From: Metabacillus sp. B2-18
GTDB lineage: Bacteria > Bacillota > Bacilli > Bacillales > Bacillaceae
Assembly (NCBI RefSeq): GCF_021117275.1
Contig: NZ_CP088245.1
Location: forward strand, 843,501 to 907,500
Reading direction: 5' to 3'
Length of the DNA: 64,000 nucleotides
This document shows, in pieces, positions 7,235-58,680 of the stretch (position 1 is its first letter; the number at the start of each line of letters is the position of its first letter). A program made the position numbers and the translations under genes. Below the pieces are notes generated by a model. That model was not told the DNA's origin. It was given only the letters and a program-made list of their open reading frames with translations, and made no database searches.

Positions 7235-7690
7235 TGGTCATGGGCTTCATACAAGAGATGAAGACCAAAGCAAGGGTGAAATTCAGAAGAAATGGTCTTC
7301 ATACAAGAGATGAAGACTATTGCAAGTGCAAAATTGAGAAGAAATGGTCTTCATACAGGAGATGAAGACCAATGCAAGCGCGAAAATCAGAAGAAATGGT
7401 CTTCATACAGGAGATGAAGACCAATGCAAGTGCGAAAATCAGAAGAAATGGTCTTCATACAGGAGATGAAGACCAAAGTAAGGTCAAAAATCAGAAGAAA
7501 TGGTCTTCATACAAGAGATGAAGACCAATGCAAGTGCGAAAATCAGAAGAAATGGTCTTCATACAGGAGATGAAGACCATTGCAAGTGCAAAATTCACAA
7601 GAAGTGGTCTTCATCCAAGCAATGAAGACCATCACAAGGGCAAAAATCAGAAGAAATGGTCTTCATTGCTGCAAAAAGTGCCCCTCTAAC
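7235..7690. repeat. Tandem palindromic array 1, nine units, 52-bp period
   Basis: Units begin at 7235, 7293, 7345, 7397, 7449, 7501, 7553, 7605 and 7657. The spacing is exactly 52 bases except the first, which carries a 6-base insertion inside its left arm. Each unit is a 27-base palindrome, TGGTCTTCAT, 7 bases, ATGAAGACCA, followed by a 25-base linker of the type ATGCAAGTGCGAAAATCAGA plus AGAAA. The last unit keeps only the left arm. Middle units are nearly identical and the ends are decayed. The array lies between the convergent genes yisL and yisN, after the yisL terminator. Linkers are repeated rather than unique and no cas gene is near, so it is not CRISPR. Confidence 0.95.
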
Positions 7691-7708
7691 AAAAGTGACC
7701 AACTTCAC

Positions 7709-8269
7709 CTAAAACTTACTACAAACAAGCCGTCTTTCACCCAAACTTGTTGTTATTTCAAATCGATCCCCTGAATGGATGCCTCTTTCAAAGTGGTGTT
7801 GAATGGCGCAGATGGAATCTTCGTTATCAAATTGAAAGAAAGAAACCCCTTTTTTATTCACGCGATTTTCCATAAATAATAATTGATTATACGAATAAAT
7901 ACAGTCGTAAGGTGAAAAGCCAAGGGAGTTTAATTGTTTAATCAATCTGACAAATGTTTCATCTTGAAGTTCCTTTAACATTTCATCTAATGCTAAAGGT
8001 AATTTTTTTCTTATCCGCACTGTATCACCGTGATTTAATGATAGCGTTCCCATGTCAGTCTTGATCTTACCTAAGCCTATCCACCTACCTGTTGTCCATC
8101 CGGACGGATTTAAAATTTCTAGATGAGAATTTTGAATCTCATCTAATAAATGAAGCTCATCACTCATATCATCATAAATGACATACTGATCATTTGTAAT
8201 TTCGATCAGTCCAGTTAAATACGAACGTTTTTGATTTAATAGTAAGTCTGTTCGTTTAATTGGAAACAT
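7709..8269 (-). CDS. yisN: YisN-like protein (DUF2777)
   Basis: A 186-residue cytoplasmic protein, recognised as YisN/DUF2777 by composition and its place between yisL and asnO. It starts MFPIKRTDLLLNQKRSYLTG and has no membrane segment or clear catalytic motif. GGAGGT precedes ATG 8269. Its 3' end abuts palindromic array 1, with 18 bases between. Function is unknown. Confidence 0.8.
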   Translation of the reverse strand: MFPIKRTDLLLNQKRSYLTGLIEITNDQYVIYDDMSDELHLLDEIQNSHLEILNPSGWTTGRWIGLGKIKTDMGTLSLNHGDTVRIRKKLPLALDEMLKELQDETFVRLIKQLNSLGFSPYDCIYSYNQLLFMENRVNKKGVSFFQFDNEDSICAIQHHFERGIHSGDRFEITTSLGERRLVCSKF

Positions 8270-8379
8270 AGCATTTTACCTCCAAATCGTGTTTACACTT
8301 GTTGTATTGAAAAACGTTGATATCATCGTTTTTGACAAAAATGAGGAAGTTTATGCATTTCTGCATTTTACTTGGGACA

Positions 8380-8409
8380 ATTCAACATTTGAAGAATTGG
8401 GCATACAAT
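8380..8409 (+). promoter_or_regulatory. Possible SigE-type promoter of asnO
   Basis: CATACAAT at 8402-8409 fits the SigE -10 consensus; a weak A/T-rich -35 (CATTTG region) lies about 16 bases upstream. The same -10 could pair with TTCAAC as a SigA promoter. B. subtilis asnO is known as a sporulation (SigE) gene, which favours SigE. Confidence 0.45.
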
Positions 8410-8481
8410 GTCTACACCTATTAAGGTCACAGACGTTGGTGTGTATGAGATCATAATATAGATGAGGGAGATGAAGCTTTC

Positions 8482-10332
8482 ATGTGCGGAATAACAGGCT
8501 GGGTAAACTTTAAAGGAAATATACGCACTGAGCAAGAAACGATTAAGAAAATGGCAGAAACGTTAGCAAAACGAGGACCAGATGACACGAACATTTGGGG
8601 AGAAGATCATGTGCAATTTGGTCATAAACGTTTAGTGGTAGTTGACCCTGCCGGTGGTATTCAACCAATGACGCGGACTAAAGAAGGAAACTCTTATACG
8701 ATTTGCTATAACGGTGAGCTTTACAATACTGAGGACATTAGAAAAGAACTTCTTTCAAGAGGATATACCTTTAAAGGGCATTCTGATACAGAAGTTCTGC
8801 TTCAATCTTATATTGAATGGGAAGAAGAATGCGTACATCGTTTAAACGGAATATTTGCTTTTGCGGTTTGGGATTCAAAGAAAGAAAAATTATTTATTGG
8901 TAGAGATCGCCTAGGAGTTAAACCTTTATTTTATAAAGAAGAGAACGGATCTATCCTATTTGCGTCAGAGCTTAAAGCAATTCTAGCTCATCCTTCTGTT
9001 TCGGCTAAACTTGATAAAACAGGTCTTTCTGAAATATTTGGGGTTGGACCTTCGAGGACTCCGGGTGTTGGCGTTTTTAAAGGAATTGATGAACTGCGTC
9101 CTGCTCATGCCTTAGTTTATACAAAAAATGGCTTAAAGAAGTGGCGTTATTGGGATGTAGAAAGCAAACCACATGAGGATTCTGTTGAAGAAACAGCTGA
9201 TAAGGTTAGATTTTTATTTACAGATGCTGTTAAACGTCAATTAGTATCAGATGTTCCATTATGTACGTTCCTTTCAGGCGGAGTTGACTCGAGTGCGATT
9301 ACAGCTGTTGCTGCAGAGCATTATAAACAGGAAGGAAAAGGGCAACTTCATACTTATTCCATTGATTATGAAGATAATGATAAATTCTTTAAAGCTAATG
9401 AGTTTCAACCAAACTCAGATGGGCCTTGGATTGAGAAAATGAGTGAAACATTTAACACACACCACCATCGCTGTGTGATTACACAACAGGAATTAGTTGA
9501 TCATCTTATTGAAGCAACTTCTGTTCGTGACTTGCCTGGTATGGCAGATGTGGATTCATCTTTATTGTGGTTCTGCCGTGAAATAAAAAAAGACTTTGTG
9601 GTTGGTTTGTCAGGTGAATGTGCGGATGAAATTTTTGGAGGGTATCCTTGGTTCCATCGCCCTGAGGATTTAGCAAGTTCAGCATTTCCATGGATGCGTT
9701 CAACAGATGAGCGAGTTTCTTTATTAAAGCCTGAATGGCAGGATAAATTAAAACTACATGATTATGTGCAAGCTCGCTATCAAGAAACAGTTGACGAGAC
9801 ACCACTGCTTGAAGGTGAATCAGAGATTGAAGCCCAAAGACGTCAGCTATTCTACTTAAATATGCATTGGTTTATGGCGAATCTCTTAGACCGTAAAGAT
9901 CGAATGAGTATGGGTGCTAGCTTAGAGGTTCGTGTTCCATTTGCTGATCATCGTCTTGTTGAGTATGTGTGGAATATTCCTTGGGAAGTAAAAATGCATG
10001 GCGATCGTGAAAAAGGGATTTTACGAAAAGCGTTGGAGGGACTTCTTCCTAATGAGGTTCTATATCGTAAGAAAAGTCCTTATCCAAAAACACATAATCC
10101 AGAGTATACAAGATTAGTAACAAACTGGCTGAAATCTTTAGTAAGTCAAAAAGATTCGATTTTACATGAGTTGTTAAATAAACAAAAGCTCAATGATATT
10201 ATCGAAACAGAGGGGAAAGCATTCCAAGTCCCTTGGTTCGGCCAATTAATGTCAGGTCCACAGCTTCTTGCACATTTAGCACAAATTCATGTTTGGTTTG
10301 ACAGCTATTCAATTGATATTGATGAAAGATAG
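8482..10332 (+). CDS. asnO: Asparagine synthetase (glutamine-hydrolysing), AsnO type
   Basis: A 616-residue class II glutamine-dependent asparagine synthetase, converting aspartate, glutamine and ATP to asparagine. Cys2 after the start Met is the glutaminase nucleophile (MCGITGW). The N-terminal glutamine amidotransferase covers about 1-210, and the synthetase domain has the PP-loop SGGVDSS at about 265-271. Full length for AsnO (about 614). The position after yisN and the sporulation-type promoter fit asnO rather than asnB or asnH. A terminator follows immediately. Confidence 0.95.
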   Translation: MCGITGWVNFKGNIRTEQETIKKMAETLAKRGPDDTNIWGEDHVQFGHKRLVVVDPAGGIQPMTRTKEGNSYTICYNGELYNTEDIRKELLSRGYTFKGHSDTEVLLQSYIEWEEECVHRLNGIFAFAVWDSKKEKLFIGRDRLGVKPLFYKEENGSILFASELKAILAHPSVSAKLDKTGLSEIFGVGPSRTPGVGVFKGIDELRPAHALVYTKNGLKKWRYWDVESKPHEDSVEETADKVRFLFTDAVKRQLVSDVPLCTFLSGGVDSSAITAVAAEHYKQEGKGQLHTYSIDYEDNDKFFKANEFQPNSDGPWIEKMSETFNTHHHRCVITQQELVDHLIEATSVRDLPGMADVDSSLLWFCREIKKDFVVGLSGECADEIFGGYPWFHRPEDLASSAFPWMRSTDERVSLLKPEWQDKLKLHDYVQARYQETVDETPLLEGESEIEAQRRQLFYLNMHWFMANLLDRKDRMSMGASLEVRVPFADHRLVEYVWNIPWEVKMHGDREKGILRKALEGLLPNEVLYRKKSPYPKTHNPEYTRLVTNWLKSLVSQKDSILHELLNKQKLNDIIETEGKAFQVPWFGQLMSGPQLLAHLAQIHVWFDSYSIDIDER

Positions 10333-10341
10333 GAACGTAAG

Positions 10342-10375
10342 AGGAACTGCTCGGTAAGGGGCAGTTCCTTTTGTT
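10342..10375 (+). terminator. Terminator of asnO
   Basis: Stem AGGAACTGC / GCAGTTCCT with a ten-base loop, followed by TTTTGTTTT. Confidence 0.88.
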
Positions 10376-10471
10376 TTATTTAAATATAAGATTTTTATGA
10401 ATCATCATATAGGAGAGGGCTTAGAATAATCCAAGCTTCTCTAAATCTTTAAAATTGCAGAGCATTCTAAT

Positions 10472-10500
10472 TTGAGTTTCATATTTTAAGTGTGTATAAT
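10472..10500 (+). promoter_or_regulatory. SigA promoter of the + strand carotenoid operon
   Basis: TTGAGT, 17 bases, TATAAT. A vegetative promoter of good quality about 40 bases upstream of the first desaturase gene. Confidence 0.8.
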
Positions 10501-10540
10501 TTTTGTATAATAAATGTACATTTAAATAGGAGGCGTCATC

Positions 10541-12067
10541 ATGACGAAAATGGTTGTTATTGGAGCTGGACCTGGTGGATTAGCATCAGCCATGCTTCTG
10601 GCAAGCAAGGGGCATGAAGTTCATTTGTATGAAAAACAATCGTATATAGGTGGTCGAAACTCTTCAATCCAAGAAAAAGGCTATACATTTGATATGGGCC
10701 CTACATTTTTAAGCATGGTTCATATCGCGGAAGAAATTTTTCAAACGGTAGGAAAAAACCTTCATGACTATGTTGAACTTATTGAACTAAAGGAAATGTA
10801 TCAACTAATTTTCGATGATGCCACAATTAATATGACAAGAAATCAAGATGAAATGATAAAGAGGCTAAATCAACTTTCTCAAGGTGAAGGAAATGGCTAC
10901 CTAAAATTTATGAATGAAACAAGAAATAAAATGAATGCCCTCACACCTATCTTACAAAGTAAAATGGATAGATTTTAACATTATTTTAGATGGCGTGTCA
11001 TTAAGGCGTTGCCTCAGCTCACTGTCTCTAAAAGTTTATATGAAGTCCTTTCAAAATATTTTAAAGATGAACGTGTAAAGCTTGCATTTACTTTTCAATC
11101 TAAATATCTAGGCATGTCACCATGGGAATGCCCCGGAGCTTTTTCCATTCTTTCATATATGGAGCATGAGTATGGAATTTACCACCCAAAGGGAGGAGTG
11201 AATCAGCTTTCAAAGGCAATGGCAAAGGCATTTGAAGAGCTTGGGGGGCAAATTCACTTAAACAAGGGAGTGCAGAAGTTAGTATTGGACGGAAAAACAG
11301 TAAAAGGCGTTCAGCTTGAGGATGGACGAAAAGTTTTTGCTGATGAAGTGATCATTAACGGTGATTTTGCCCATGTAATGACAAACTTGGTGGATGAAGG
11401 TGTATTGAAAAAGTATTCAAAGAAAAAACTTCAGAAAAAGAAATTTTCATGTTCAACATTCATGATCTATCTTGGCATAAACAAGCAATACGATCTCCCA
11501 CATCATACGATTGTGTTTGCTCAGGATTATAAGAAAAATGTTGAAGAAATTACGAAAACACACTTAATGCCTGAAGATCCATCCATTTATGTTCAGAATG
11601 CTAGTGTCACAGATCCAACTCTTGCTCCGGAGGGACATTCAGCACTATATATCCTGGCTCCGGTACCAAGTAATTTTAGTCAACTAGATTGGGAGAAAGA
11701 AAAACATAGATTCAGAGATCTTGTATTAAAAACATTACAAGAAAAAACAATGTTTAAAAACATAGAAGAACATATTGAAGTTGAAAAAATCATCACTCCT
11801 AAGAATTGGGAAGAAGACCTATTTGTCTATAAAGGGGCAACATTTAACTTAGGACATCAACTTTCTCAAATGATGGTCTTGCGGCCACATAATGAATTTG
11901 AAGAGTTAAAAAATTGCTGGTTAGTTGGGGGAGGTACCCATCCTGGTAGTGGGCTTCCGACGATTCTCGAATCAGCACGTATCACGACGAAGGCAATAAA
12001 CAACCAATATAAGAAACAGCCGAATTCGATCTATCTACAAACAGGAGAAGTGAGGGATGTAAGATGA
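10541..12067 (+). pseudogene. CrtN/CrtI-type carotenoid desaturase interrupted by an in-frame TAA
   Basis: Two ORFs, 10541-10978 and 10979-12067, are in the same frame and separated only by a TAA at 10976-10978. Read through, they give about 508 residues, normal for CrtN/CrtI. The first half has the FAD motif VIGAGPGGLASA and GYTFDMGPTFL; the second has the C-terminal signature THPGSGLPTILESA. The frame is open on both sides of the stop, so this is a point nonsense change (for example from CAA, GAA or AAA) rather than a frameshift. A restart at TTG 11009 would give a fragment lacking the FAD site. Good RBS (AGGAGG) at 10541. The 3' end overlaps the next gene by four bases. It may be a pseudogene, a base-call error, or read through. 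Confidence 0.85.
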
Positions 12068-13530
12068 AAACCGTTATTGTTGGTGGAGGAATTGGCGGCT
12101 TACTATCCGCTCTGCTTTTGCATCAAAATGGAATTGACGTAATGATCGTTGAAAAACGAGATCGTCTAGGTGGCAGGTTGGCTTTTATTGAGCAAGATGA
12201 CTACAAAATTGATGAGGGACCAACGATTGTACTGCTGCCTGAGATGATAACAGAGTTGTTAAACGAAGCGGGTATTACTAGTGATGATTATGAATTAGTT
12301 AGGATTGATCCCTTATACAAAATTCATTTTCACGATGGAGCAACGTATGAAAAATATTCAGATCAGACTAAGCAGCTTAATGAACTAAGAAGATTATACT
12401 CAGAGGAACAAGCTGGGTACCTAAACTTTATGAAAGATATGGATGTACATTTCAAACTAGGAATGGACCGTTTCATCAAACGTTCCTTTGTCCAGAAAAA
12501 GGATTTTTGGTCAAAACAAAATATAAAAACATTATTAAAACTTAAAGCATATCGCTCTGTTTATCAATCTCTTAAAACATACTTTAAAGAAGAAAATCTG
12601 AGATTGGCGTATTCTTTGCAATCACTTTATATAGGCGGAAATCCATACGAATCACCGGCTCTTTATTCGCTTATTTCATATAGTGAGCATAAACATGGAA
12701 TTTATTATTTAAAAGGCGGTTATGCGAGTTTAGTAGATGTATTGAATAGAGAAATTGAGAAGAGTGGAATAAAGGTTTTCTTAAATTCTGAGGTAGCGTC
12801 TCTTACATTTACCAGAAATCGGGCAACAGGGGTGAATGTGAACGGGCAGTGGATAAAAGCAGATTCGGTTATCTTAAACGGAGATTATCCTGTTATATCA
12901 ACACTACTCGATCCTTCTAAGTCTGCTCAAAGAAGCTATACTCCTTCATCAAGCTGTTTATTGCTTTATTTTGGATTAGATAAAATCTATGAAAATACAC
13001 CCGTCCATCAGTTTTTTATGGGGAAAGACTTTTCAAACCATATGAGTGAAGTGTTCGAACAAAAAGTTGTACCTACTGACCCCGCATTCTATACTTTTCA
13101 TCCTTCAGTAATTGATACTACTCTTGCTCCAGAAGGAAAAGGGGTGTTGTATGTTTTAGTTCCAGTACCAGCGGGTTCTCATATTGAATGGTCTACTAAA
13201 CAATCGTTTATTGAGGGAATTATTGATTCATTAGAAAAAAGAGGGTATCCAAATTTACGACAGCATATTGTTTGGAAAAAGGTGCGAACACCAAATGATG
13301 CAGAAAGTGAAGGGATTTTTCAAGGGGGAAGCTTTGGCATTGCACCACTTCTTTTTCAATCAGGTGTGTTTCGCCCTCAGGCAAGACCTTCTAAATATGA
13401 AAATGTATATGCCGTTGGAGCATCCGTTCATCCGGGTGGAGGCATACCAATTGTGATGCAAGGTGCAAAGCTTATGGTTGATCAATTATTACATGACGCG
13501 GAACGGAGGGAGAAAGAATGGACAATTTAG
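12064..13530 (+). CDS. Carotenoid desaturase, CrtN-like (4,4'-diapophytoene desaturase type)
   Basis: A 488-residue FAD-dependent desaturase/oxidase of the CrtN/CrtI family. The N-terminal dinucleotide motif is GGGIGGLLSALLL with VEKRDRLGGR; the C-terminal signature is ASVHPGGGIPIV, with GSFGIAPLLFQSG resembling CrtN. It should desaturate a C30 precursor made by the adjacent CrtM. ATG 12064 overlaps the stop of the upstream interrupted desaturase (ATGA), and its end overlaps crtM by 13 bases, so the three form one operon. Which of the paralogues is the true diapophytoene desaturase cannot be settled by eye. Confidence 0.85.
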   Translation: MKTVIVGGGIGGLLSALLLHQNGIDVMIVEKRDRLGGRLAFIEQDDYKIDEGPTIVLLPEMITELLNEAGITSDDYELVRIDPLYKIHFHDGATYEKYSDQTKQLNELRRLYSEEQAGYLNFMKDMDVHFKLGMDRFIKRSFVQKKDFWSKQNIKTLLKLKAYRSVYQSLKTYFKEENLRLAYSLQSLYIGGNPYESPALYSLISYSEHKHGIYYLKGGYASLVDVLNREIEKSGIKVFLNSEVASLTFTRNRATGVNVNGQWIKADSVILNGDYPVISTLLDPSKSAQRSYTPSSSCLLLYFGLDKIYENTPVHQFFMGKDFSNHMSEVFEQKVVPTDPAFYTFHPSVIDTTLAPEGKGVLYVLVPVPAGSHIEWSTKQSFIEGIIDSLEKRGYPNLRQHIVWKKVRTPNDAESEGIFQGGSFGIAPLLFQSGVFRPQARPSKYENVYAVGASVHPGGGIPIVMQGAKLMVDQLLHDAERREKEWTI

Positions 13531-14354
13531 AGATTGCGTATAGGCAATGTGAGGAGATGATTAGGCAACACTCAAAAACGTTTTATAAGGCATTTTCTTT
13601 GCTTCCTGAAAAAAAGCGGAAAGCGGTGTGGGCTGTTTATGCGTTCTGTCGGCTTGTTGATGATATCGTTGATGAAGGAAGTTCTCCACATGAGGAACTG
13701 GAAAATTTTGAACAAGAGTTTACATTGTTTTTAAATGGAGTATTGCCGCTGAATCATCAATTTATGTGGATGGCTCTAAAAGATGCTTTCTCCCAGTATC
13801 AACTAGATGAAAAACCGTTTTTCGACATGCTGAAGGGACAGGGAATGGATTTAATCAAAACACGCTATGAAACGATGGATGAGGTGCTTGATTATTCCTA
13901 TCATGTTGCTAGTACAGTAGGGCTCATGCTGTTACCCATTTTGGCTCCAAAAGAAAAAGTAGCACTGAAAGATGGTGCCATTTCACTTGGCTTAGGTATG
14001 CAAATTACCAATATTCTACGTGACATTGGAGAAGATTTACAACGTGACCGTGTTTATATCCCGAAGGAATTATTGCTGAAATATCACTATTCCCATCTTG
14101 AACTTCAGCATGGGATTATTAATTCAGATTTTATTCAGTTGTGGGAGCATATGGCGCAGGAAGCTGAGATATACTATTCTAAGGCACTAGAAACAATGCA
14201 TCTTTACCCAATTGCCTCTCGTACTCCAGTTAAAGCATCGGCACTACTTTATCGTGAGATTTTAAATAAAGTTAGAGATCACGGATATCGAGTCTTTTCG
14301 GAGAAACAATTTGTCACGAATAAAGAAAAAACCACTATTCTTTCGGGGATATAA
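13518..14354 (+). CDS. crtM: Squalene/phytoene synthase family, CrtM-like
   Basis: A 278-residue trans-isoprenyl synthase joining two prenyl diphosphates head to head. Both aspartate-rich motifs are intact: DDIVD (48-52) and DIGED (169-173), followed by QRDRVYIPKE. In this cluster it most likely makes 4,4'-diapophytoene from farnesyl diphosphate. B. subtilis has a related gene, yisP, in the same neighbourhood, whose product acts as a farnesyl diphosphate phosphatase; the adjacent desaturases favour true CrtM activity here. GGAGGGAG precedes ATG 13518. Confidence 0.88.
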   Translation: MDNLEIAYRQCEEMIRQHSKTFYKAFSLLPEKKRKAVWAVYAFCRLVDDIVDEGSSPHEELENFEQEFTLFLNGVLPLNHQFMWMALKDAFSQYQLDEKPFFDMLKGQGMDLIKTRYETMDEVLDYSYHVASTVGLMLLPILAPKEKVALKDGAISLGLGMQITNILRDIGEDLQRDRVYIPKELLLKYHYSHLELQHGIINSDFIQLWEHMAQEAEIYYSKALETMHLYPIASRTPVKASALLYREILNKVRDHGYRVFSEKQFVTNKEKTTILSGI

Positions 14355-14483
14355 GGGTAATAGAGAGAGGGCAGCGCTAGAAATAGGCTGTCCCTTATTA
14401 AATTTGGTCTATTTTGGGGGTATTCTATCTACTTGGCCTTGTCCTCTATCAACCCACACGTTTTGCCGAATTTCAATATCAAT

Positions 14484-15956
14484 TTACAACCTCTTTGCCA
14501 AAACTTCAGCTACATTTAACCCACTAATTACAACCATCGGAGACCCTCCTCCAGGATGGGTACTACCGCCAACAAAGGATAAATTACGAATATCTTTTGA
14601 AAAATTGCTAGGTCTTAAAAAAGCATCTTTCCGTTTATTACTTGATAGCCCATATAATGACCCGCGGTAGGCACCAAACTTAGTTGAAATGTCTTTTGGT
14701 GTGATAATCTGCTCTTGTACAAGATGTTTTTTAATAGAAAGGCCCTTTTCCTCCAATTGGGAATAGATATGTTCTTTATATTCATGTGGATTCATTCCTA
14801 TTTCTCCATTTCTGCCTAATGCAGGGGCGTTGACTAAGATAAATAAATTATCTCCGTCTGGTGATCGTTCAGGGTCTGTATACGAGCTGTTACTTATATA
14901 AATAGATGGGTTTTTACTATACTTTTGTCCTTTAAACAGCTCTTGAAACTCCTCTTTATATTGATTTGAAAAAAAGACATTGTGATGAAGAAGCTGTGAA
15001 TGCCGAATGGATAAGCCTGCTAAAATAACAAATGCCGAAATAGATGGCTCATAGCGATTCCGTTTCAATTCTGAAAAGTTTGGACGATATTGCTTCTCTA
15101 CTAATTCAGGATAAGCCTTTAAAAGATCTGCATTCATGATCACTTCATCAGCGGAAATGGCTTCACTGTCTGCTAATAGAATAGAAGTCACTTTATTATT
15201 CTCAACGTTTAACTTTGTTACAGTTGTATTTAAGGTGATTTCAACTCCTAGCTTCTTAGCGAGTTGTTCATAGCTTTCAGCTAATTGAACATTGCCACCT
15301 TGAATAAAATAAACACCTTGCACAAGCTCCAAATAGGCAATCATGGCAAACGTTGCTGGACTCTCATATGGTGAGGAGCCAATATAAGTTGCGTATCGAG
15401 AAAATGCTTCAATCACTTCATTTTTCCTAAAATAACGACTGAAAAAGTGGTGAAGTGACTCGAACGGCCGCACTCTTAATAGAGCAGAAGCAAGTGTTGG
15501 AGACACATAATCTGACCATGATTGAAATGTTCTATAAAAGAAGTGCTTCTCTGATAATGAGTAAAGTCTAGTTATTTCTTTAATAAATGAATGATAGTGT
15601 TGTGCACCAAAGAGATCAATCTGAGCTAGCTGCTCCTTCATATGTGTATGATCATGGGTAAAGTCTAATATTTGTCCGTTGCTTAAAACATTACGAGTAT
15701 GAATCGGAAGTTTTTGAAAGGTAAGGTAATTTTCCGATTTCTCACCAGCTATTTCAAAAACACGTTTAAATATATGGGGCATGGTGATTGTATTTGGCCC
15801 AAAGTCAAACTGATGTGAGCCTAGTTTATAAGGCAGTAATTTTCCGCCACAATGATTGTTTTTTTCTATAATTTGTACTTTATGTCCTTTTGCGGCTAAA
15901 GAAATGCTAGCAGCTAATCCCCCTAAACCTGCTCCAATGATGACGACTTTCTTCAT
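14484..15956 (-). CDS. Carotenoid oxidase/ketolase, CrtP/CrtNb-like
   Basis: A 490-residue CrtN-superfamily flavoprotein with FAD motif VIIGAGLGGLAAS and IEKNNHCGGK. Features such as FDFGPNTITMPHIF, YRGSLYGLSS and GGSTHPGGGSPMV resemble 4,4'-diaponeurosporene/diapolycopene oxidases (CrtP, CrtNb) more than desaturases. It is last in the minus-strand operon (hydratase, acyltransferase, oxidase) and converges on crtM. Likely role: oxidising the terminal methyl group of the C30 carotene. The activity is inferred from subfamily-like motifs. Confidence 0.82.
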   Translation of the reverse strand: MKKVVIIGAGLGGLAASISLAAKGHKVQIIEKNNHCGGKLLPYKLGSHQFDFGPNTITMPHIFKRVFEIAGEKSENYLTFQKLPIHTRNVLSNGQILDFTHDHTHMKEQLAQIDLFGAQHYHSFIKEITRLYSLSEKHFFYRTFQSWSDYVSPTLASALLRVRPFESLHHFFSRYFRKNEVIEAFSRYATYIGSSPYESPATFAMIAYLELVQGVYFIQGGNVQLAESYEQLAKKLGVEITLNTTVTKLNVENNKVTSILLADSEAISADEVIMNADLLKAYPELVEKQYRPNFSELKRNRYEPSISAFVILAGLSIRHSQLLHHNVFFSNQYKEEFQELFKGQKYSKNPSIYISNSSYTDPERSPDGDNLFILVNAPALGRNGEIGMNPHEYKEHIYSQLEEKGLSIKKHLVQEQIITPKDISTKFGAYRGSLYGLSSNKRKDAFLRPSNFSKDIRNLSFVGGSTHPGGGSPMVVISGLNVAEVLAKRL

Positions 15957-15975
15957 AGCATAATCACAATCCTAT

Positions 15976-16635: not shown

Positions 16636-16645
16636 TCTTTTTTCC

Positions 16646-17401: not shown

Positions 17402-17425
17402 ACTAATCCCCCATTTCTATCCACG

Positions 17426-19259: not shown

Positions 19260-19700
19260 TTTCGTTCATCAGGTGAATGAAGACCAAAACATGTATGGGA
19301 GCCCGCGCAAATGGTCTTCATAAGGCGAATGAAGACCAAAACATGTATGGAAGCCCGCGCAAATGGTCTTCATAAGGTGAATGAAGACCAAAACATGGAT
19401 GGAAGCCTGTGCAAATGGTCTTCATAAGGCGAATGAAGACCAAAACATGTATGGAAGCCTGTGCAAATGGACTTCATAAGGTGAATGAAGACCAAAACAT
19501 GTATGGAAGCCCGCGCAAATGGTCTTCATAAGGTGAATGAAGACCAAAACATGGATGGAAGCCCGCACAAATGGTCTTCATAAGGTGAATGAAGACCAAA
19601 ACATGGATGGAAGCCTGTGCAAATGGTCTTCATAAGGCGAATGAAGACCAAAACACAGATAGAAGCACGTCCCAACATTCTTCATAAACCTGATAAATGA
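19260..19700. repeat. Tandem palindromic array 2, nine units, 52-bp period
   Basis: Units begin at 19260, 19312, 19364, 19416, 19468, 19520, 19572, 19624 and 19676, exactly 52 bases apart; the first and last are decayed but in phase. Each has the same palindrome arms as array 1 (TGGTCTTCAT and ATGAAGACCA, 7-base loop AAGGCGA or AAGGTGA) but an unrelated 25-base linker of the type AAACATGTATGGAAGCCCGC plus GCAAA. The array fills most of the 637-base gap between the convergent diguanylate cyclase and yisQ genes. I see no other gene in that gap. Confidence 0.95.
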
Positions 19701-47588: not shown

Positions 47589-47599
47589 GGGAGATCGTT

Positions 47600-49539: not shown

Positions 49540-49562
49540 GATCAGTATTTTTTTTACATGTA

Positions 49563-49592: not shown

Positions 49593-49659
49593 TATCCACA
49601 TGCTAATAGGTGGACGTTTCCACTATTAGAAGAACTATAGACAAACGAGGTGTAAGCAG

Positions 49660-50730: not shown

Positions 50731-53700
50731 AAACCAATCAATAAAGAAAATCATCGTAATCGGTTCTGGCCCAATTGTGATCGGTCAGGCGGCAGAATTT
50801 GATTATGCAGGAACACAAGGATGCTTAGCGTTAAAGGAAGAAGGCTATCAAGTTGTCCTTGTTAATAACAATCCGGCAACAATTATGACAGATGAGGAAT
50901 TCTCAGATGTTCTGTATTTTGAACCTTTAACAGTTGAAAGCCTAACTAACATTATAAAAAAAGAAAAACCAGATGGTTTACTTGCTTCATTAGGTGGTCA
51001 AACAGGACTAAACTTAGCGATGGAACTTCACGAAGCAGGCGTTCTTGAAAAATATGGAGTGCAATTACTAGGTACTTCAATTGAATCAATCCGCAAAGGT
51101 GAAGATCGTAACGAATTTCGCCAGTTAATGTACGATTTAAACGAGCCAATACCTGAGAGCTCAATTGTCACCACTCTTGATGAAGCTCTTGAGTTTTCTG
51201 GAAAAATTGGCTTCCCAATTATCATTCGTCCAGCTTACACACTTGGAGGAAAAGGTGGCGGAATTGCTTCAAATCTAGAAGAATTTAAGAAGCTTGTAAA
51301 AAGTGGATTACATGCAAGCCCTATAACACAATGCTTAATTGAAAAAAGCATTGCAGGCTTTAAAGAAGTAGAGTATGAAATGATACGAGATCATAAAGGT
51401 ACATGTATTTCTGTATGTAATATGGAAAACATTGACCCAGTTGGTGTTCATACAGGGGACTCAATTGTTGTTGCGCCATCTCAAACGTTAACAGATCAGG
51501 ATTACCATATGCTAAGAAGCGCAGCAGTTAAGATCGTTTCAGCACTAGGTGTGGTCGGTGGATGTAACATTCAATTAGCTTTAGATCCAAAAAGTAAGCA
51601 ATACTATGTGATTGAAGTTAATCCACGGGTCAGCAGATCATCTGCTCTAGCATCAAAGGCTACTGGTTATCCAATTGCAAAAATCGCTGCAAAGCTTGCA
51701 GTTGGTTATACACTAGAAGAATTAAAAAATCCATTAACAATGAGCACATATGCAAGCTTTGAACCAGCACTTGATTATGTTGTTGTTAAATTCCCAAGAT
51801 GGCCGTTTGATAAGTTTAACAAAGCGGACCGTAAGCTTGGTACGAAAATGAAAGCAACCGGCGAGGTTATGGCCATTGAACGTAATCTTGAGGCTGCTCT
51901 TCAAAAAGCTTGTGATTCATTAGAATTAGATAACATCGGAACACATCTTCCGGAGTTAGTGACATTATCAACTGATGAAATCATTAACTTAATGAAAAAG
52001 ACTGATGATCGTAGATTCTTTGCTGTAATGGAGCTGATTAGAAGAGGAACCACAATTGAGGAAATTCACGAAATGACAGAAATGGATCTTTATTTCCTTT
52101 CATCTTTCAAAAAGATTGTTGATCTTGAGAACCAGCTTAAAGGAAAGTCTCTTGAAACACTAGAAGCTGATTTAATAGCTGAAGTAAAAGAAAAAGGTTT
52201 CTCAGACCGTACAATCGCATCACTTTTAAATGCTCCTGAGGCAAATGTTCGCAAGCTTCGTCTTGAAGCAGGAGTGAAGGCTTCTTATAAATATGTTGAT
52301 ACATGTGCAGCAGAATTTGAAGCACGTACAAACTATTTTTACTCCACGTATTTTGGAGAAAACGAACAGCCTGAACTGTCAGATAAGAAAAAAATCTTAA
52401 TTATCGGTTCCGGTCCAATTCGTATCGGTCAAGGAATCGAATTTGATTATAGCGCAGTACATGGAATTAAGGCTCTTAAGCAATTAGGTTATGAAGCAGT
52501 CATGATCAATAATAACCCAGAAACAGTAAGTACAGATTTTGAAACAGCTGATCGCCTGTACTTTGAACCAATAACCCTTGAGCACGTGTTAAACATTGTG
52601 GATTCAGAAGGGATCGATTCTGTTATTGTTCAATATGGTGGGCAAACAGCGATTAACCTTGCTGAGCAGTTAGAAACGGCAGGAGTTCAATTATTGGGTA
52701 CTGACACGGAAACTCTTGATTGGTTAGAGGATCGTGATAAGTTTTATCAAATATTAGATAACCTATCCATTCCACATGCTGCTGGTTTAACAGCAAACAA
52801 TGCAGAAGAAGCATTAAAGGGCGCTAGTGAAATTGGCTTCCCGCTTTTATTAAGACCTTCTTATGTTATTGGTGGAAAAGGAATGGTTGTTGTTCATAAC
52901 GAAGCAACATTAGCTAAGCTTCTTTCGGAAAATACAAATATGATTTATCCCGTATTGATCGATCAATTTGTTCAAGGCCTTGAAGGTGAAATAGACCTGA
53001 TTTCTGACGGTGAAGAAGCATTTATTCCAACATATATTGAGCATGTTGAGCCAGCGGGCGTTCACTCAGGTGACAGCTTAGCCATTTTACCATCTCAAAA
53101 TTTAACGGATAAGAATAAACAGGTGATTGCGGATTATGCTAATGCCCTTGTAAAAAAGCTTAACTATCGCGGCATTATGAATATTCAATTTTTAGTAAAT
53201 GGTGAAAACATTTACGTGCTTGAGGTAAACCCGCGTGCAAGCAGAACTGCACCAGTTATTAGTAAAGTAACAGGTATTCCAGTAATTAAGCATGCAACAC
53301 ATTTATTGTGTGGAAAAAAATTAAAAGAACTGCAAATTCAGTCATCAGAACAGTCGAATATGGTAGCTGTTAAGTACCCAGTCTTCTCAAGTCATGCTCT
53401 TCATGATGTTGATATCACATTAGGACCTGAAATGAAAGCAACAGGTGAAGGAATGTGTGTGGGCAAAGATATAAAGAGTGTTTACCGTAAAATTTTCAAA
53501 AAAGAGCTTGAAAATGTGACAAGTGTTTACTTTGATATAGAAAATGAAAAGGCGATTAAGATTGCAAAAGAAGCAGGTCTTAACGTAGTAACAAGTGATT
53601 ATCAAACATGGGTTGAGGGAGAAAAGGGGATTTTTGTATCCCTAGTTGATAGTGAAGAAGCAAAGCTAGAACGACAGCAAGCTTTAGAAAAAGGAATGAT

Positions 53701-53812
53701 TCTATTTACAAACCTTGCTACGTACTATGCTTGTATTAATAGCCTCTTTGCATTGGATGAGGATGTATCTTCTATTCAACAACTCACGAAGCCATTAGTA
53801 AAGAACTCATAA
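50723..53812 (+). CDS. carB: Carbamoyl-phosphate synthase, arginine-specific, large subunit
   Basis: A 1029-residue CarB with two homologous ATP-grasp halves: the first begins near IGSGPIVIGQAAEFDYAG and the second near IGSGPIRIGQGIEFDYS (about 560). It is a little shorter than the pyrimidine-type enzyme at the C-terminal allosteric domain, as expected for the arginine-specific form. Starts inside the end of carA (eight-base overlap) with AAAGGAG. Confidence 0.95.
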   Translation: MSKNQSIKKIIVIGSGPIVIGQAAEFDYAGTQGCLALKEEGYQVVLVNNNPATIMTDEEFSDVLYFEPLTVESLTNIIKKEKPDGLLASLGGQTGLNLAMELHEAGVLEKYGVQLLGTSIESIRKGEDRNEFRQLMYDLNEPIPESSIVTTLDEALEFSGKIGFPIIIRPAYTLGGKGGGIASNLEEFKKLVKSGLHASPITQCLIEKSIAGFKEVEYEMIRDHKGTCISVCNMENIDPVGVHTGDSIVVAPSQTLTDQDYHMLRSAAVKIVSALGVVGGCNIQLALDPKSKQYYVIEVNPRVSRSSALASKATGYPIAKIAAKLAVGYTLEELKNPLTMSTYASFEPALDYVVVKFPRWPFDKFNKADRKLGTKMKATGEVMAIERNLEAALQKACDSLELDNIGTHLPELVTLSTDEIINLMKKTDDRRFFAVMELIRRGTTIEEIHEMTEMDLYFLSSFKKIVDLENQLKGKSLETLEADLIAEVKEKGFSDRTIASLLNAPEANVRKLRLEAGVKASYKYVDTCAAEFEARTNYFYSTYFGENEQPELSDKKKILIIGSGPIRIGQGIEFDYSAVHGIKALKQLGYEAVMINNNPETVSTDFETADRLYFEPITLEHVLNIVDSEGIDSVIVQYGGQTAINLAEQLETAGVQLLGTDTETLDWLEDRDKFYQILDNLSIPHAAGLTANNAEEALKGASEIGFPLLLRPSYVIGGKGMVVVHNEATLAKLLSENTNMIYPVLIDQFVQGLEGEIDLISDGEEAFIPTYIEHVEPAGVHSGDSLAILPSQNLTDKNKQVIADYANALVKKLNYRGIMNIQFLVNGENIYVLEVNPRASRTAPVISKVTGIPVIKHATHLLCGKKLKELQIQSSEQSNMVAVKYPVFSSHALHDVDITLGPEMKATGEGMCVGKDIKSVYRKIFKKELENVTSVYFDIENEKAIKIAKEAGLNVVTSDYQTWVEGEKGIFVSLVDSEEAKLERQQALEKGMILFTNLATYYACINSLFALDEDVSSIQQLTKPLVKNS

Positions 53813-53845
53813 AGAGCAAGTGGAAATGAAAGGAAGTGGGCAAGA

Positions 53846-54784
53846 GTGAGTTTAAAGCTAAAAGAAAAAACGATACAAAAAAGAGATTTTTTAACTTTAC
53901 TTGATTATAGCCAGCAGGAAATTCTAGACTTAATTGAAGATGCTTTTAAGTTAGAAGAAAATCCGCTTCAGCCAGTGTTACAAGGTAAAACACTAGCAAT
54001 GATTTTTGAGAAATCGTCAACAAGAACTCGTGTGTCGTTTGAAACAGGAATGCTTCAATTAGGAGGTCATGCTTTATTTTTAAGCAGCCAAGACCTTCAA
54101 CTAGGCAGAGGAGAGCCTGTATCAGACACAGCAAAAGTATTGTCAGGATATGTAGATGCCATCATGATTCGTACATTTGGTCATGATAAAATTGAAGAAT
54201 TAGCTAAGCATGCAAGCATTCCAGTTATCAATGGATTAACAGACCTTTTCCATCCTTGTCAGGCACTTGCTGATTTAAAAACGATTTACCGTCTGAAAGA
54301 GAAATTCGTTGGCGTAAAAACAGCTTACTTAGGTGATGGAAACAATGTTGCACACTCTCTTATGATTGCTGCTGCTAAAGTAGGAATGGACTTTTCCTTA
54401 GGTTGTCCAAAAGGATATGAACCAAACCAAGCTGTGGTGGAAAAAGCTCAGGCACTTGCTGCTGAGACAGGTGCAAAAATTACAATCACAAATGACCCGG
54501 TTGAAGCGGTGAAAGATGCCGATATCATTTATACAGATGTATGGGCGAGTATGGGGCAAGAAAGTGAACAACAAGAACGTCTTGTTGCATTTAAAGACTT
54601 CCAAGTAAATGATGAACTCGTAAAGCATGCAAAGAAGGACTACAACTTCCTGCACTGCTTACCAGCACATCGTGAAGAAGAAGTAACAGCATCCATTATC
54701 GACGGCGAGCATTCAGCTGTATTCGAACAAGCAGAAAACCGTCTACATGTTCAAAAGGCATTGTTGGTAAAATTGTTGGGGTAA
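53846..54784 (+). CDS. argF: Ornithine carbamoyltransferase
   Basis: A 312-residue OTCase joining carbamoyl phosphate and ornithine into citrulline. [10 protein letters not shown] binds carbamoyl phosphate; HPCQALADL and the HCLPAHR loop complete the active site. GTG start at 53846 follows AAGGAAG. Last gene of the operon, with a strong terminator immediately after. Confidence 0.96.
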
Positions 54785-54794
54785 TACTTATATA

Positions 54795-54834
54795 AAAAGG
54801 CGTGTTAACTTGTTTTAGTTAACACGCCTTTTTT
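54795..54834 (+). terminator. Terminator of the arg operon
   Basis: Perfect 14-base stem AAGGCGTGTTAACT / AGTTAACACGCCTT, six-base loop, six T. Confidence 0.95.
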
Positions 54835-54919
54835 GGGGATTTGGGAGTAGATGTTGAGAGCAGAGAAAGGTGTTTTAATAATAGTGTGAATCTGACAAGA
54901 AAAGGGATTGAAAGGAGAG

Positions 54920-55121
54920 ATGTGTCTCAATACTGTGGAATCGGGACAGAAACAGGGAGGGATGAGAGGAATGAGTCTCGATACTGAGGGGATCGGGACA
55001 GAAAAAGGGAGGGGGCAGAGGGATGAGTCTCGATACTGAGGGAATCGGGACAGAAACAGGTAGGGAGCAGAGGGATGAGTCTCGATACTGAGGGAATCGG
55101 GACAGAAACAGGTAGGGAGCA
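54920..55121. repeat. Tandem palindromic array 3, left segment (four units)
   Basis: Units start at 54922 (decayed), 54973, 55025 and 55077: spacing 51, 52, 52. Each holds GTCTCGAT, nine bases, ATCGGGAC, a 25-base imperfect palindrome (one G-T pair on the + RNA), then a purine-rich linker such as AGAAACAGGTAGGGAGCAGA. The last unit is cut by IS copy 1 and ends in the target duplicate TAGGGAGCA (55113-55121). Confidence 0.93.
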
Positions 55122-55220
55122 GATTAAGTCCGTATAATTGTGTAAAAAGAAAAAGGGTTCATTTTATTCACTCTTGGCTACAATGTTTTCAGCTACGATA
55201 AACATGAAAAGAGGAATAAG

Positions 55221-56387
55221 ATGACCCAGTTACAGTTTAACCTAGATTTGGAAGTTTTAAAAGATTCTGTATTAAATTCTGATATTGATGCAGTAGTTAA
55301 ATCAGCAATTGTTTTGGTCTTAAATGAGTTTATGGAAAAAGAGAGAGATGATTATCTACATGCTGCTTCTTATGAACGCTCTGCAGCCCGTCGTGACTAT
55401 CGCAACGGCTACTATGAACGTGAATTAATTATGAGTATCGGCAAGATACAACTCAAGGTGCCGAGAACTCGTGATGGTGAGTTTTCGACTACAGTTTTTG
55501 AAAAATATGCTAGATGTGATCAAGCTTTAGTGATCTCCATGTTGGAAATGGTTATTAATGGGGTCTCAACACGCAAGGTAACACAAATAGTTGAACAGCT
55601 ATGTGGTAAATCTGTCTCAAAATCGTTTGTTTCTTCATTGACCTTGAAATTAGATCCAATCGTAAATGATTGGGCAAAGCGTCCTTTAAACGTCAAATAT
55701 TATCCCTATCTTTTTGTAGATGCCATGTATATCAAAGTGAGAGAACACCATAAGGTGGTCTCAAAGGCTGTTTATATTGCCACAGCTATTACAGATAAGG
55801 GCCAGCGTGAAATACTTGGTCTAAGTATTGATCATGCAGAGAATTACGAGAGTTGGAGTCGCTTCCTTCAACAGCTAAAATCACGAGGACTTCAGTCTCC
55901 GAAACTAGTGATATCAGATGCTCACCAAGGCTTACAAAAAGCCATACAACGTGAATTTTTAGGTACTAGCTGGCAAAGGTGTAATGTTCATTTTAAAAGG
56001 AACATTATTGAAAAGTTGCCCAAAAAGGATTCAGCTGATATTCGTATGATGATCAAGCGTGTGTTTGAGGCAATCACTGTTGAAGATATCAGAACCTTTA
56101 AGAATGAACTGATGACTCAATTTGGAAATAATCCAAAGTACGAAAAGGCTCTTACTATTTTCGATGAAGGGTTCGAAGATACCATTCAATATATGAATCA
56201 TCCAGTGAATATGCGCCCTCATATACGAAGTACGAACTCTCTTGAACGATTAAATCAAGAAGTACGAAGAAGAGAAAGAGTTATTCGTATCTTCCCAAAC
56301 ACACAATCTGCTTTTCGTTTAGTAGGAGCTGTTTTAATGGAATACCAAGAATCTGTTTACTCTACAAAATCTATAAGAAGATGCTAA
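55221..56387 (+). CDS. IS256-family transposase, copy 1
   Basis: A 388-residue transposase of the Mutator/IS256 type. The DDE residues appear in FVDAMY, VISDAHQGL and NSLERLNQEVRRRERVIRIF, with the conserved CxxH in WQRCNVHFKRN. The gene is full length and intact. RBS GAGGAATAAG before ATG 55221. Identical protein at 57059, so transposition was recent. Confidence 0.96.
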   Translation: MTQLQFNLDLEVLKDSVLNSDIDAVVKSAIVLVLNEFMEKERDDYLHAASYERSAARRDYRNGYYERELIMSIGKIQLKVPRTRDGEFSTTVFEKYARCDQALVISMLEMVINGVSTRKVTQIVEQLCGKSVSKSFVSSLTLKLDPIVNDWAKRPLNVKYYPYLFVDAMYIKVREHHKVVSKAVYIATAITDKGQREILGLSIDHAENYESWSRFLQQLKSRGLQSPKLVISDAHQGLQKAIQREFLGTSWQRCNVHFKRNIIEKLPKKDSADIRMMIKRVFEAITVEDIRTFKNELMTQFGNNPKYEKALTIFDEGFEDTIQYMNHPVNMRPHIRSTNSLERLNQEVRRRERVIRIFPNTQSAFRLVGAVLMEYQESVYSTKSIRRC

Positions 56388-56418
56388 TTTTTTCGTAGCT
56401 TCCATTATGGAATGATCA

Positions 56419-56474
56419 CATATCCAGGAAAGACTGTCAAAGTGAGGAACCTTTGACAGCCTTCCCTGGATATG
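56419..56474. repeat. Large hairpin downstream of the transposase gene, copy 1
   Basis: Arms of 24 bases (56419-56442 and 56451-56474) beginning CATATCCAGG and ending CCTGGATATG match at 22 positions, with an eight-base loop. No T run follows, so it is not a standard terminator. The two mismatches are A-C on the + RNA but wobble pairs on the minus RNA. It lies 31 bases after the transposase stop and is repeated at 58257-58312. Confidence 0.85.
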
Positions 56475-56587
56475 TAAGTGAAAGCCCATGGAATTTACGC
56501 AAAAAAAAATGTAGGGGATAATACACATATCCAAATGTAGTAGTTGAAAACATTGTATTAAATTTACACAATATTCTGGACTTGACT

Positions 56588-56959
56588 TAGGGAGCAGAGG
56601 GATGAGTCTCGATACTGCGGGAATCGGGACAGAAAAAGGGAGGGATGAGAGGGATGAGTCTCGATACTGAGGGAATCGGGACAGAAACAGGTAGGGGGCA
56701 GAGGAATGAGTCTCGATACTGCGAGAATCGGGACAGAAAAAGGGAGGGATGAGAGGAATGAGTCTCGATACTGCGAGAATCGGGACAGAAACAGGTAGGG
56801 AGCAGAGAAATAAGTCTCGATACTGCGAGAATCGGGACAGAAACAGGTAGGGGGCAGAGGAATGAGTCTCAATACTGCGAGAATCGGGACAGAAACAGGT
56901 AGGGGGCAGAGGAATGAGTCTCGATACTGCGAGAATCGGGACAGAAACAGGGAGGGATG
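56588..56959. repeat. Tandem palindromic array 3, middle segment (seven units)
   Basis: Units start at 56604, 56656, 56708, 56760, 56812, 56864 and 56916, all exactly 52 bases apart. Two loop variants alternate (ACTGAGGGA and ACTGCGAGA), as do two linker variants (GTAGGG.GCAGAG and GGAGGGATGAGAG). Bounded by the right target duplicate of IS copy 1 and the left one of copy 2. Confidence 0.95.
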
Positions 56960-57058
56960 GATTAAGTCCGTATAATTGTGTAAAAAGAAAAAGGGTTCAT
57001 TTTATTCACTCTTGGCTACAATGTTTTCAGCTACGATAAACATGAAAAGAGGAATAAG

Positions 57059-58225
57059 ATGACCCAGTTACAGTTTAACCTAGATTTGGAAGTTTTAAAA
57101 GATTCTGTATTAAATTCTGATATTGATGCAGTAGTTAAATCAGCAATTGTTTTGGTCTTAAATGAGTTTATGGAAAAAGAGAGAGATGATTATCTACATG
57201 CTGCTTCTTATGAACGCTCTGCAGCCCGTCGTGACTATCGCAACGGCTACTATGAACGTGAATTAATTATGAGTATCGGCAAGATACAACTCAAGGTGCC
57301 GAGAACTCGTGATGGTGAGTTTTCGACTACAGTTTTTGAAAAATATGCTAGATGTGATCAAGCTTTAGTGATCTCCATGTTGGAAATGGTTATTAATGGG
57401 GTCTCAACACGCAAGGTAACACAAATAGTTGAACAGCTATGTGGTAAATCTGTCTCAAAATCGTTTGTTTCTTCATTGACCTTGAAATTAGATCCAATCG
57501 TAAATGATTGGGCAAAGCGTCCTTTAAACGTCAAATATTATCCCTATCTTTTTGTAGATGCCATGTATATCAAAGTGAGAGAACACCATAAGGTGGTCTC
57601 AAAGGCTGTTTATATTGCCACAGCTATTACAGATAAGGGCCAGCGTGAAATACTTGGTCTAAGTATTGATCATGCAGAGAATTACGAGAGTTGGAGTCGC
57701 TTCCTTCAACAGCTAAAATCACGAGGACTTCAGTCTCCGAAACTAGTGATATCAGATGCTCACCAAGGCTTACAAAAAGCCATACAACGTGAATTTTTAG
57801 GTACTAGCTGGCAAAGGTGTAATGTTCATTTTAAAAGGAACATTATTGAAAAGTTGCCCAAAAAGGATTCAGCTGATATTCGTATGATGATCAAGCGTGT
57901 GTTTGAGGCAATCACTGTTGAAGATATCAGAACCTTTAAGAATGAACTGATGACTCAATTTGGAAATAATCCAAAGTACGAAAAGGCTCTTACTATTTTC
58001 GATGAAGGGTTCGAAGATACCATTCAATATATGAATCATCCAGTGAATATGCGCCCTCATATACGAAGTACGAACTCTCTTGAACGATTAAATCAAGAAG
58101 TACGAAGAAGAGAAAGAGTTATTCGTATCTTCCCAAACACACAATCTGCTTTTCGTTTAGTAGGAGCTGTTTTAATGGAATACCAAGAATCTGTTTACTC
58201 TACAAAATCTATAAGAAGATGCTAA
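57059..58225 (+). CDS. IS256-family transposase, copy 2
   Basis: A 388-residue protein identical to the one at 55221, with the same DDE motif positions and RBS. Intact. The two copies lie in the same orientation 1838 bases apart, so recombination between them could remove or duplicate the middle array segment. Confidence 0.96.
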   Translation: MTQLQFNLDLEVLKDSVLNSDIDAVVKSAIVLVLNEFMEKERDDYLHAASYERSAARRDYRNGYYERELIMSIGKIQLKVPRTRDGEFSTTVFEKYARCDQALVISMLEMVINGVSTRKVTQIVEQLCGKSVSKSFVSSLTLKLDPIVNDWAKRPLNVKYYPYLFVDAMYIKVREHHKVVSKAVYIATAITDKGQREILGLSIDHAENYESWSRFLQQLKSRGLQSPKLVISDAHQGLQKAIQREFLGTSWQRCNVHFKRNIIEKLPKKDSADIRMMIKRVFEAITVEDIRTFKNELMTQFGNNPKYEKALTIFDEGFEDTIQYMNHPVNMRPHIRSTNSLERLNQEVRRRERVIRIFPNTQSAFRLVGAVLMEYQESVYSTKSIRRC

Positions 58226-58256
58226 TTTTTTCGTAGCTTCCATTATGGAATGATCA

Positions 58257-58312
58257 CATATCCAGGAAAGACTGTCAAAGTGAGGAACCTTTGACAGCCT
58301 TCCCTGGATATG
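58257..58312. repeat. Large hairpin downstream of the transposase gene, copy 2
   Basis: Same 24-base arms and eight-base loop as at 56419-56474, within IS copy 2. Confidence 0.85.
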
Positions 58313-58425
58313 TAAGTGAAAGCCCATGGAATTTACGCAAAAAAAAATGTAGGGGATAATACACATATCCAAATGTAGTAGTTGAAAACATTGTATTAAA
58401 TTTACACAATATTCTGGACTTGACT

Positions 58426-58680
58426 GAGGGATGAGAGGAATGAGTCTCGATACTGCGAGAATCGGGACAGAAACAGGTAGGGAGCAGAGAAATAAGTCTC
58501 GATACTGCGAGAATCGGGACAGAAACAGGTAGGGGCAGAGGAATGAGTCTCAATACTGCGAGAATCGGGACAGAAACAGGTAGGGAGCAGAGAAATGAGT
58601 CTCGATACTGCGAGAATCGGGACAGAAAAAGGAAGAAAGCAGAGAAATGAGTCTCGATACTGCACAAAATCGGGCCTCAC
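58426..58680. repeat. Tandem palindromic array 3, right segment (five units)
   Basis: Units start at 58442, 58494, 58545, 58597 and 58649 (spacing 52, 51, 52, 52; the 51 reflects one lost G in the linker). The last unit decays after ACTGCACAAAATCGGG. With the left and middle segments this makes about 16 units, lying between the convergent argF and uppP genes. The bases 58684-58803 beyond it show no gene. Confidence 0.93.

Follow-up and report, generated by a model that had tools for sequence, protein, structure and literature searches.

Replication-oriented rows of palindromes at a 52-bp spacing in the intergenic DNA of Metabacillus sp. B2-18, candidate sites for phased protein binding

We analyzed a 64-kb stretch of the Metabacillus sp. 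B2-18 chromosome (hereafter "the window"; 64,000 nucleotides, positions 843,501 to 907,500 of the 5,138,672-bp contig NZ_CP088245.1) and found that three tandem palindromic arrays within it belong to a genome-wide family of intergenic repeats that we class apart from repetitive extragenic palindromic (REP) sequences, bacterial interspersed mosaic elements (BIMEs), and Staphylococcus aureus repeat (STAR) elements. The arrays hold palindromes with conserved arms at a nearly invariant spacing of 52 bp, they are polarized with respect to replication, and a transposon inserts into them at a position set by the palindromes. We tentatively read them as rows of phased binding sites that perhaps insulate against head-on transcription, with a probability of roughly 0.3; for the first half of this reading, a candidate specific protein that binds the duplex, we see about even odds. 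Both the protein and the insulator role are what we infer from these patterns in the DNA.

The preliminary description of this DNA had reported three arrays with a 52-base period, and Tandem Repeats Finder, together with direct reading of the sequence, returned them at the same positions (Table 1). Arrays 1 and 2 share the palindrome TGGTCTTCAT-N7-ATGAAGACCA but carry unrelated linkers, again as described; array 3, built on GTCTCGAT-N9-ATCGGGAC, is one array in three pieces, interrupted by two copies of one transposon. Across the whole genome, the palindrome of arrays 1 and 2 gave 149 matches with at most three mismatches versus 2 for a reversed control pattern, that of array 3 gave 203 forward and 156 reverse matches versus 1 and 1, and a third arm class, GTCGTTCAT, gave 34 versus 1. 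Because these matches far exceed the reversed-pattern control, the array palindromes are not a product of chance. A scan for 25-bp palindromes over the window and the fetched genome stretches found 40 chains, three of which had no arms of these classes and were left out; the remaining 37 pieces (275 units) correspond to 31 arrays after joining the transposon-split ones (three pieces each for window array 3 and L204, two each for L200 and L202). Most arrays came from stretches that were selected on palindrome matches, not on gene orientation.

The family comprises class A (arms GGTCTTCAT; 9+7+9 bp), class B (arms GTCYCGAT; 8+9+8 bp), and class C (arms GTCGTTCAT; 9+7+9 bp), which all combine a 25-bp palindrome with a 27-bp linker; classes A and C occur mixed inside single arrays. 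Units run head-to-tail, and the orientation of the loop is constant within an array. The 238 successive palindrome spacings in the 37 pieces measured 52 bp in 224 cases, 51 in 13, and 53 in one, and between palindrome centers we counted 206 pairs at exactly 52 bp and 13 at 51, versus a mean of 5.4 for unrelated distances. The linkers resembled each other between arrays, on average, somewhat more than shuffled ones did (0.44 versus 0.31 for class A, 0.46 versus 0.31 for class B); only 1 of 120 class A linker pairs reached 70% identity or more, and the purine/pyrimidine pattern along the linker was scarcely common between arrays (0.611 versus 0.585 shuffled). We also saw two intergenic arrays with a repeat unit of 153-154 bp, roughly three times 51 (L108 349595, L160 4920128), the former with a long palindrome around GCTTTTATA.

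The same design recurs outside the genus. A three-arm pattern, made up of both arms of a palindrome and the arm that follows at 52 bp (at most two mismatches), was searched in 397 genomes of the order, the own genome included, and occurred in 28 of them (27 of the 396 others), which span 9 of 136 genera (eight besides the own) and 8 families, the own again counted; its reversed control was found in none of the 397. In the 27 other genomes, the same palindrome stands at the same spacing with other linkers. Most matches (346 forward, 394 reverse) were seen in G416 of genus g16, where, in the sites listed, A-T often replaces T-A as the pair that immediately flanks the arms. The asnO-like protein of the window shows 88-94% identity to those of its ten closest named relatives, most of which are Metabacillus (e.g., M. 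halosaccharovorans and M. litoralis). Among 65 named loci around asnO, two from other genera showed repeats of period 51-52: Peribacillus frigoritolerans (L048), without a clear palindrome, and a metagenome-assembled Alkalihalobacillus genome (L078, 9299-9785 and 11933-12158), with intergenic arrays of unrelated, stem-forming arms. The latter suggests that the spacing may outlast the sequence of the arms. Since the period stays fixed while the sequence changes, in other genera as well, the selection on spacing put forward in the preliminary description appears credible.

A stronger rule than any the preliminary description contained is the orientation of the arrays with replication. The GC skew of the stretches locates the origin close to base 1 and the terminus at about 2.35 Mb. 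On this basis, loop and linker are rich in purines on the leading sense in all 31 arrays (37 of 37 pieces), at fractions of 0.58-0.85, versus 0.51-0.52 in other gaps, a value that led us to reject a general mutational skew as the cause. The unpaired consensus consists of A (0.41), G (0.33), T (0.14), and C (0.12). Polarity persists between two lagging-strand genes (L027, 466 kb; L033, 3.85 Mb), and it agrees in 8 of 10 further short rows with arms of these classes, two of the ten being distant pieces of split arrays; the exceptions lie at 4275178 (purine 0.34) and 2391362 (0.48). Elsewhere, with the leading strand inferred from local GC skew, polarity was seen in 21 of 24 arrays of two congeners (G006, G015) and in 12 of 14 from six genomes of other genera. 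Read in the lagging sense, 31 of 35 pieces fell in the top 5% of 300-nucleotide windows for pyrimidine content, and a terminator-like stem with a U tract occurred inside the array in 17 of 37 pieces, versus 2 of 37 in the leading sense (mean U in the 8 nucleotides after the stem, 3.3 versus 0.8). Of 27 places where class A sites are exact or class B sites nearly so, 23 lay in the origin-proximal half (within a quarter chromosome of the origin, on either side), a count that was put to a binomial test. A second intergenic tandem family of this genome, with a period of 20-21 or 41 and the motif ATCGCGGATAAA on the leading sense, is replication-polar too (e.g., at 1045206, 2226622, 4287021, and 4916521), with rows 4811079 and 4829859 as exceptions.

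Class B arrays are also targets of a transposon that carries a Transposase_mut domain and that we take to be of IS256 type. Both copies in array 3 are inserted mid-linker. Genome-wide, there are nine identical copies, one at 96%, and three of a 69% relative; class B arrays adjoin all nine identical copies and all three of the relative, but not the 96% copy. For the eight of the nine identical copies that were measured on both sides, the distance from the preceding palindrome to the insertion was 17-20 bp and that to the following palindrome 16-19 bp; the ninth is bordered by another element on one side and shows a distance of 17 on the other. The target repeat lies within about 2 bp of mid-linker in eight of the nine, and repeats of 8-10 bp were found for seven. 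As the linkers that were hit differ in sequence, it is the palindromes that set the insertion position, and this positioning near mid-linker argues that the palindromes are recognized as spaced marks in the DNA duplex. Such an element is a natural site-selective integrator. Insertion sequences that target REPs are known and, in the available part of that report, are described as inserting into the REP itself (PMC1525189). Another two-gene transposon (IS21-like by eye) was seen beside or inside arrays L202, L204, and L036, and the arrays may therefore be general transposon havens.

In the reading that we prefer, each array would consist of binding sites with two-fold symmetry, lined up on double-stranded DNA for a putative sequence-specific protein and spaced about five helical turns apart such that bound dimers would sit on the same side of the helix. 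The linker would be free in sequence, fixed in length, and maintained as purine-rich on the replication-leading sense, and the row would act as an insulator in long intergenic gaps, hindering transcription head-on to replication: The head-on transcript would be pyrimidine-rich, and its RNA-DNA hybrid would be weak and, in arrays 1 and 2, preceded by repeated stems. The insulator part of this proposal is suggested by the replication polarity, the pyrimidine-rich lagging sense, the terminator-like features on that sense, and the enrichment between convergent genes that is given below. In its 9-bp arms, short spacer, and dimeric protein on duplex DNA, the HrcA/CIRCE-type operator (controlling inverted repeat of chaperone expression) is of comparable build; unlike these arrays, it is a single promoter operator of other sequence and forms no arrays.

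Several observations weigh against this proposal. No array-binding protein is known, two arrays (L208, L038) stand between divergent genes, and many genes next to arrays carry terminators of their own, so that an insulator may be redundant. The U tracts are weak (at least 5 U in 8 nucleotides after 15.6% of units in the lagging sense, 1.1% in the leading sense), and just 18 of 35 pieces show a strong C-over-G bias of the kind expected for Rho; accordingly, we do not claim Rho as the sole reader, although it was found in all 17 of the array-bearing genomes that were examined for it. Unrelated tandem rows with periods of 19-22 or 40-43 show the polarity in 11 of 13 cases, and it may therefore be a general rule for long intergenic arrays that is not bound to the palindromes. 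Most congeners have none of these arrays, the lagging sense of the array 3 piece that was tested folds no better than shuffles (z = −0.81), and the symmetry of class A units, taken up below, favors pairing.

For gene context, genes were called with a home-made coding model. Several genes adjoining array pieces are transposases, and for L205, L036, and L112 we read the flanking genes past the transposon. Expressed relative to the replication-leading direction, the raw 37 pieces were flanked by ++ in 18 cases, +- in 13, -+ in 4, and -- in 2, and the 31 joined arrays lay between two leading-strand genes (17), convergent genes (10), two lagging-strand genes (2), or divergent genes (2). The background of 978 gaps in 59 systematic stretches comprised 662 leading-leading, 119 convergent, 76 lagging-lagging, and 121 divergent gaps. 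Arrays are thus enriched in convergent gaps (10 of 31 versus 119 of 978; odds ratio 3.4, Fisher p = 0.0034), also when compared with background gaps of at least 100 bp (65 of 552; p = 0.0032). Convergence is nonetheless a preference, and we rejected it as a rule; most arrays lie elsewhere, 17 of 31 between leading-strand genes. The preliminary description, which had placed the arrays between convergent genes, was right about its own three but not about the family, and a preference that is real but partial weakens it. In one stretch (L023 9471-9859; 140.5 kb), an eight-unit class A array stands between tuf-like and rpsJ-like genes (named by eye), a neighborhood that is usually a tight ribosomal gene cluster.

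The preference for convergent gaps fits a further view, that the palindromes are BIME-like topological or nucleoid sites, i.e., candidate gyrase or nucleoid-protein sites that handle supercoils, with polarity a secondary matter. The fixed spacing near five helical turns and the transposon that reads the sites as duplex agree with it as well. This view, however, leaves the replication polarity unexplained, it does not account for the majority of arrays between codirectional leading-strand genes, and the sites concentrate near the origin and not where genes converge. We regard it as possible, if rather doubtful.

Of similar standing is the view that the arrays have no host function, their units growing and shrinking by slippage and spreading by copying, with the purine bias arising from a replication-linked process on repeats. 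The distribution in relatives is patchy, as this view would have it: Within the genus, class A is frequent (at least 58 matches) in 4 of 20 other genomes and present with one or two matches in three more, and class B occurs in 2 of 20. For 19 of 20 stretches around class A arrays in G006 and G015, the flanks could be aligned to stretches of the own genome in which an array or, at L031, a single palindrome is present. At the array 1 locus, where identity to the own genome is 93-96%, the unit number varies, with 8 palindromes in the own genome, 9 in G006, and chains of 7 and 4 in G015. In five named relatives (L039, L040, L041, L047, L089), the presumed yisL/yisN gap, assigned by position, measures about 40-290 bp and holds no such row of palindromes, and in a sixth (L046) another gene occupies the position of that gap. 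A search for 52-bp arrays with other arms in G004, G008, and G014 found none in 20 stretches (400 kb), a weak result given that only about 2 were expected from the own-genome density (6 arrays over 59 systematically sampled 20-kb stretches). The slight excess similarity of linkers, as after copying, and the polarity common to unrelated repeat families likewise agree with a lack of function. Yet the spacing is kept though class A linkers have mostly diverged, arms and spacing are common to several families, ordinary gaps show no purine bias, and the purine/pyrimidine pattern of the linkers is hardly shared, which looks like a composition that is kept. We hold this view, too, to be a minority prospect.

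Symmetric arms are predicted equally by duplex half-sites and by hairpins, and we therefore compared the two arms. Class A consensuses show a fixed change in one arm in 5 of 17 pieces with none compensated, and 15 of 18 class B consensuses are asymmetric; such one-sided, uncompensated changes argue against a pure hairpin and are what half-sites may show, in support of the duplex reading. An RNA element, in which leading-sense transcripts would form successive hairpins and purine-rich unpaired segments that serve to stabilize the RNA or to bind protein, would be favored by the class B consensus position 4, where T.G (13) outnumbers C.A (2). At the level of units, however, the arms at this position are close to independence (T.G 79, C-G 32, T-A 21, and C.A 13, versus 76, 34, 23, and 11 expected), and once the two positions of highest variability are set aside, the counts of G.T (26) and C.A (16) show no difference (p = 0.16). 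Class A unit-level symmetry speaks for pairing, at 0.923 versus 0.906 shuffled, a value that 0 of 1000 shuffles reached; for class B, symmetry was weaker, with 34 of 1000 shuffles reaching it (these shuffles take no account of the relatedness of units). On either strand, pieces of arrays 1 and 2 also gave better folds than shuffles (z from −3.5 to −5.2), and the tested piece of array 3 did so on the + strand only (z = −3.06). Hence, strict hairpin selection is not supported by the array consensuses, while one unit-level test points the other way. Two further points weigh against an RNA element: The + gene upstream of each of arrays 1, 2, and 3 has a predicted terminator ahead of the array (that of array 2 at only −8.2 kcal/mol), and both neighbors of L027 and of L033 are antisense to the purine-rich strand. 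No Rfam family was found in the window. Taken together, we consider an RNA element unlikely.

Comparison with described repeats, here drawn from the accessible portions of the papers cited, supports a separate family. Like REPs and BIMEs, the arrays consist of short intergenic palindromes in many copies that prefer convergent and codirectional gaps and serve as targets of insertion sequences (PMC3733652, PMC1525189). The BIME likeness drawn in the preliminary description does not extend to the further hallmarks compared here: We found neither conserved GTAG nor CGTC beside the arms, the tetranucleotides that mark one end of the palindrome in REPs and BIMEs (PMC3733652), the linker consensuses being mostly AA.. 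after and ..AAT or ..GT before; the units run head-to-tail, whereas BIME units alternate in orientation; a link to a Y1 transposase was not seen; and insertion falls mid-linker, which the portion available does not describe for REPs (PMC1525189). A mobile REP-like hairpin moved by a Y1 transposase (REP-associated tyrosine transposase or IS200 type) on the lagging-strand template would fix orientation relative to replication, and the own genome holds five Y1_Tnp genes, but this origin is very improbable and we rejected it, as Y1_Tnp does not follow the arrays in a set of 60 relatives, the own genome included (G013 has 58 class A matches and no Y1_Tnp match; G002, G004, G008, and G014 have Y1_Tnp and no class A match), no array lies within 1.5 kb of the five genes, with isolated arm-like words in two loci only, and the tag is missing.

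The nearest described design that we found is that of the STAR elements of Staphylococcus, intergenic direct repeats with a short conserved core and longer, locus-specific, recurring spacers, to which no function is so far assigned and whose copy number varies at stable loci (PMC3532100); likewise, linkers here differ from array to array, and the unit number varies at the array 1 locus. They differ by a 14-bp GC-rich direct-repeat core with a spacer of at least 40 bp (PMC3532100), versus a 25-bp palindrome with a strict 52-bp period here. Membership was rejected since the STAR core motif TDTGTTGKGGCCCM gave 0 matches in the own genome; it also gave 0 in 398 genomes of the phylum, so that this search has no positive control. 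Architecture imparting sequences (AIMS) share the leading-strand bias (PMC5993296) seen here in all arrays and most further rows, but they are single 8-bp words and more abundant toward the terminus (PMC5993296). Triplex repeats, as far as the source portrays them (PMC4666352), do not match these arrays. The preliminary proposal that the repeat system is undescribed stands, in that no description of these arrays was found in the open-licence full-text literature, among the matches listed.

Table 1. Arrays, predicted terminator, and transposon copies in the window
Feature	Position	Strand	Details
Predicted intrinsic terminator of the + gene before array 1	7142..7188	+	−23.2 kcal/mol
Array 1	7240..7666	+	class A, GGTCTTCAT-N7-ATGAAGACC; period 52; 8.2 copies; degenerate ends
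Array 2	19265..19655	+	class A; period 52; 7.5 copies
Array 3, piece 1	54915..55123	+	class B, GTCTCGAT-N9-ATCGGGAC; 4.0 copies
Transposon copy 1	55122..56587	+	Transposase_mut; core 55127-56583; ends inferred from terminal bases
Array 3, piece 2	56588..56957	+	class B; 7.1 copies
Transposon copy 2	56960..58425	+	identical to copy 1 over the 1457-bp core (56965-58421)
Array 3, piece 3	58427..58663	+	class B; 4.6 copies

Within the window, array 1 lies between a yisL-like + gene, which carries DUF1516, and a yisN-like - gene, which carries DUF2777, and array 2 between a + GGDEF gene and a - MatE gene. Next to array 3, a BacA/uppP-like gene (58804-59612, -) is split into two frames that overlap, one matching the beginning and the other the end of the Pfam profile, through either a frameshift or a sequencing error.

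In its widest form, our preferred reading would see the arrays as replication-polarized, phased nucleoprotein arrays across the chromosome, with a dedicated DNA-binding protein common to several families, that mark long gaps and block processes running against the fork; we put this forward with more reserve than the reading we opened with. If true, minisatellite-like repeats would obey three strict rules, namely, a 52-bp spacing, conserved half-sites, and polarity with replication, across several bacterial families. They would then offer a testable handle on how genes are shielded from head-on transcription or how intergenic DNA is organized, and the array DNA itself would be the bait for its protein.

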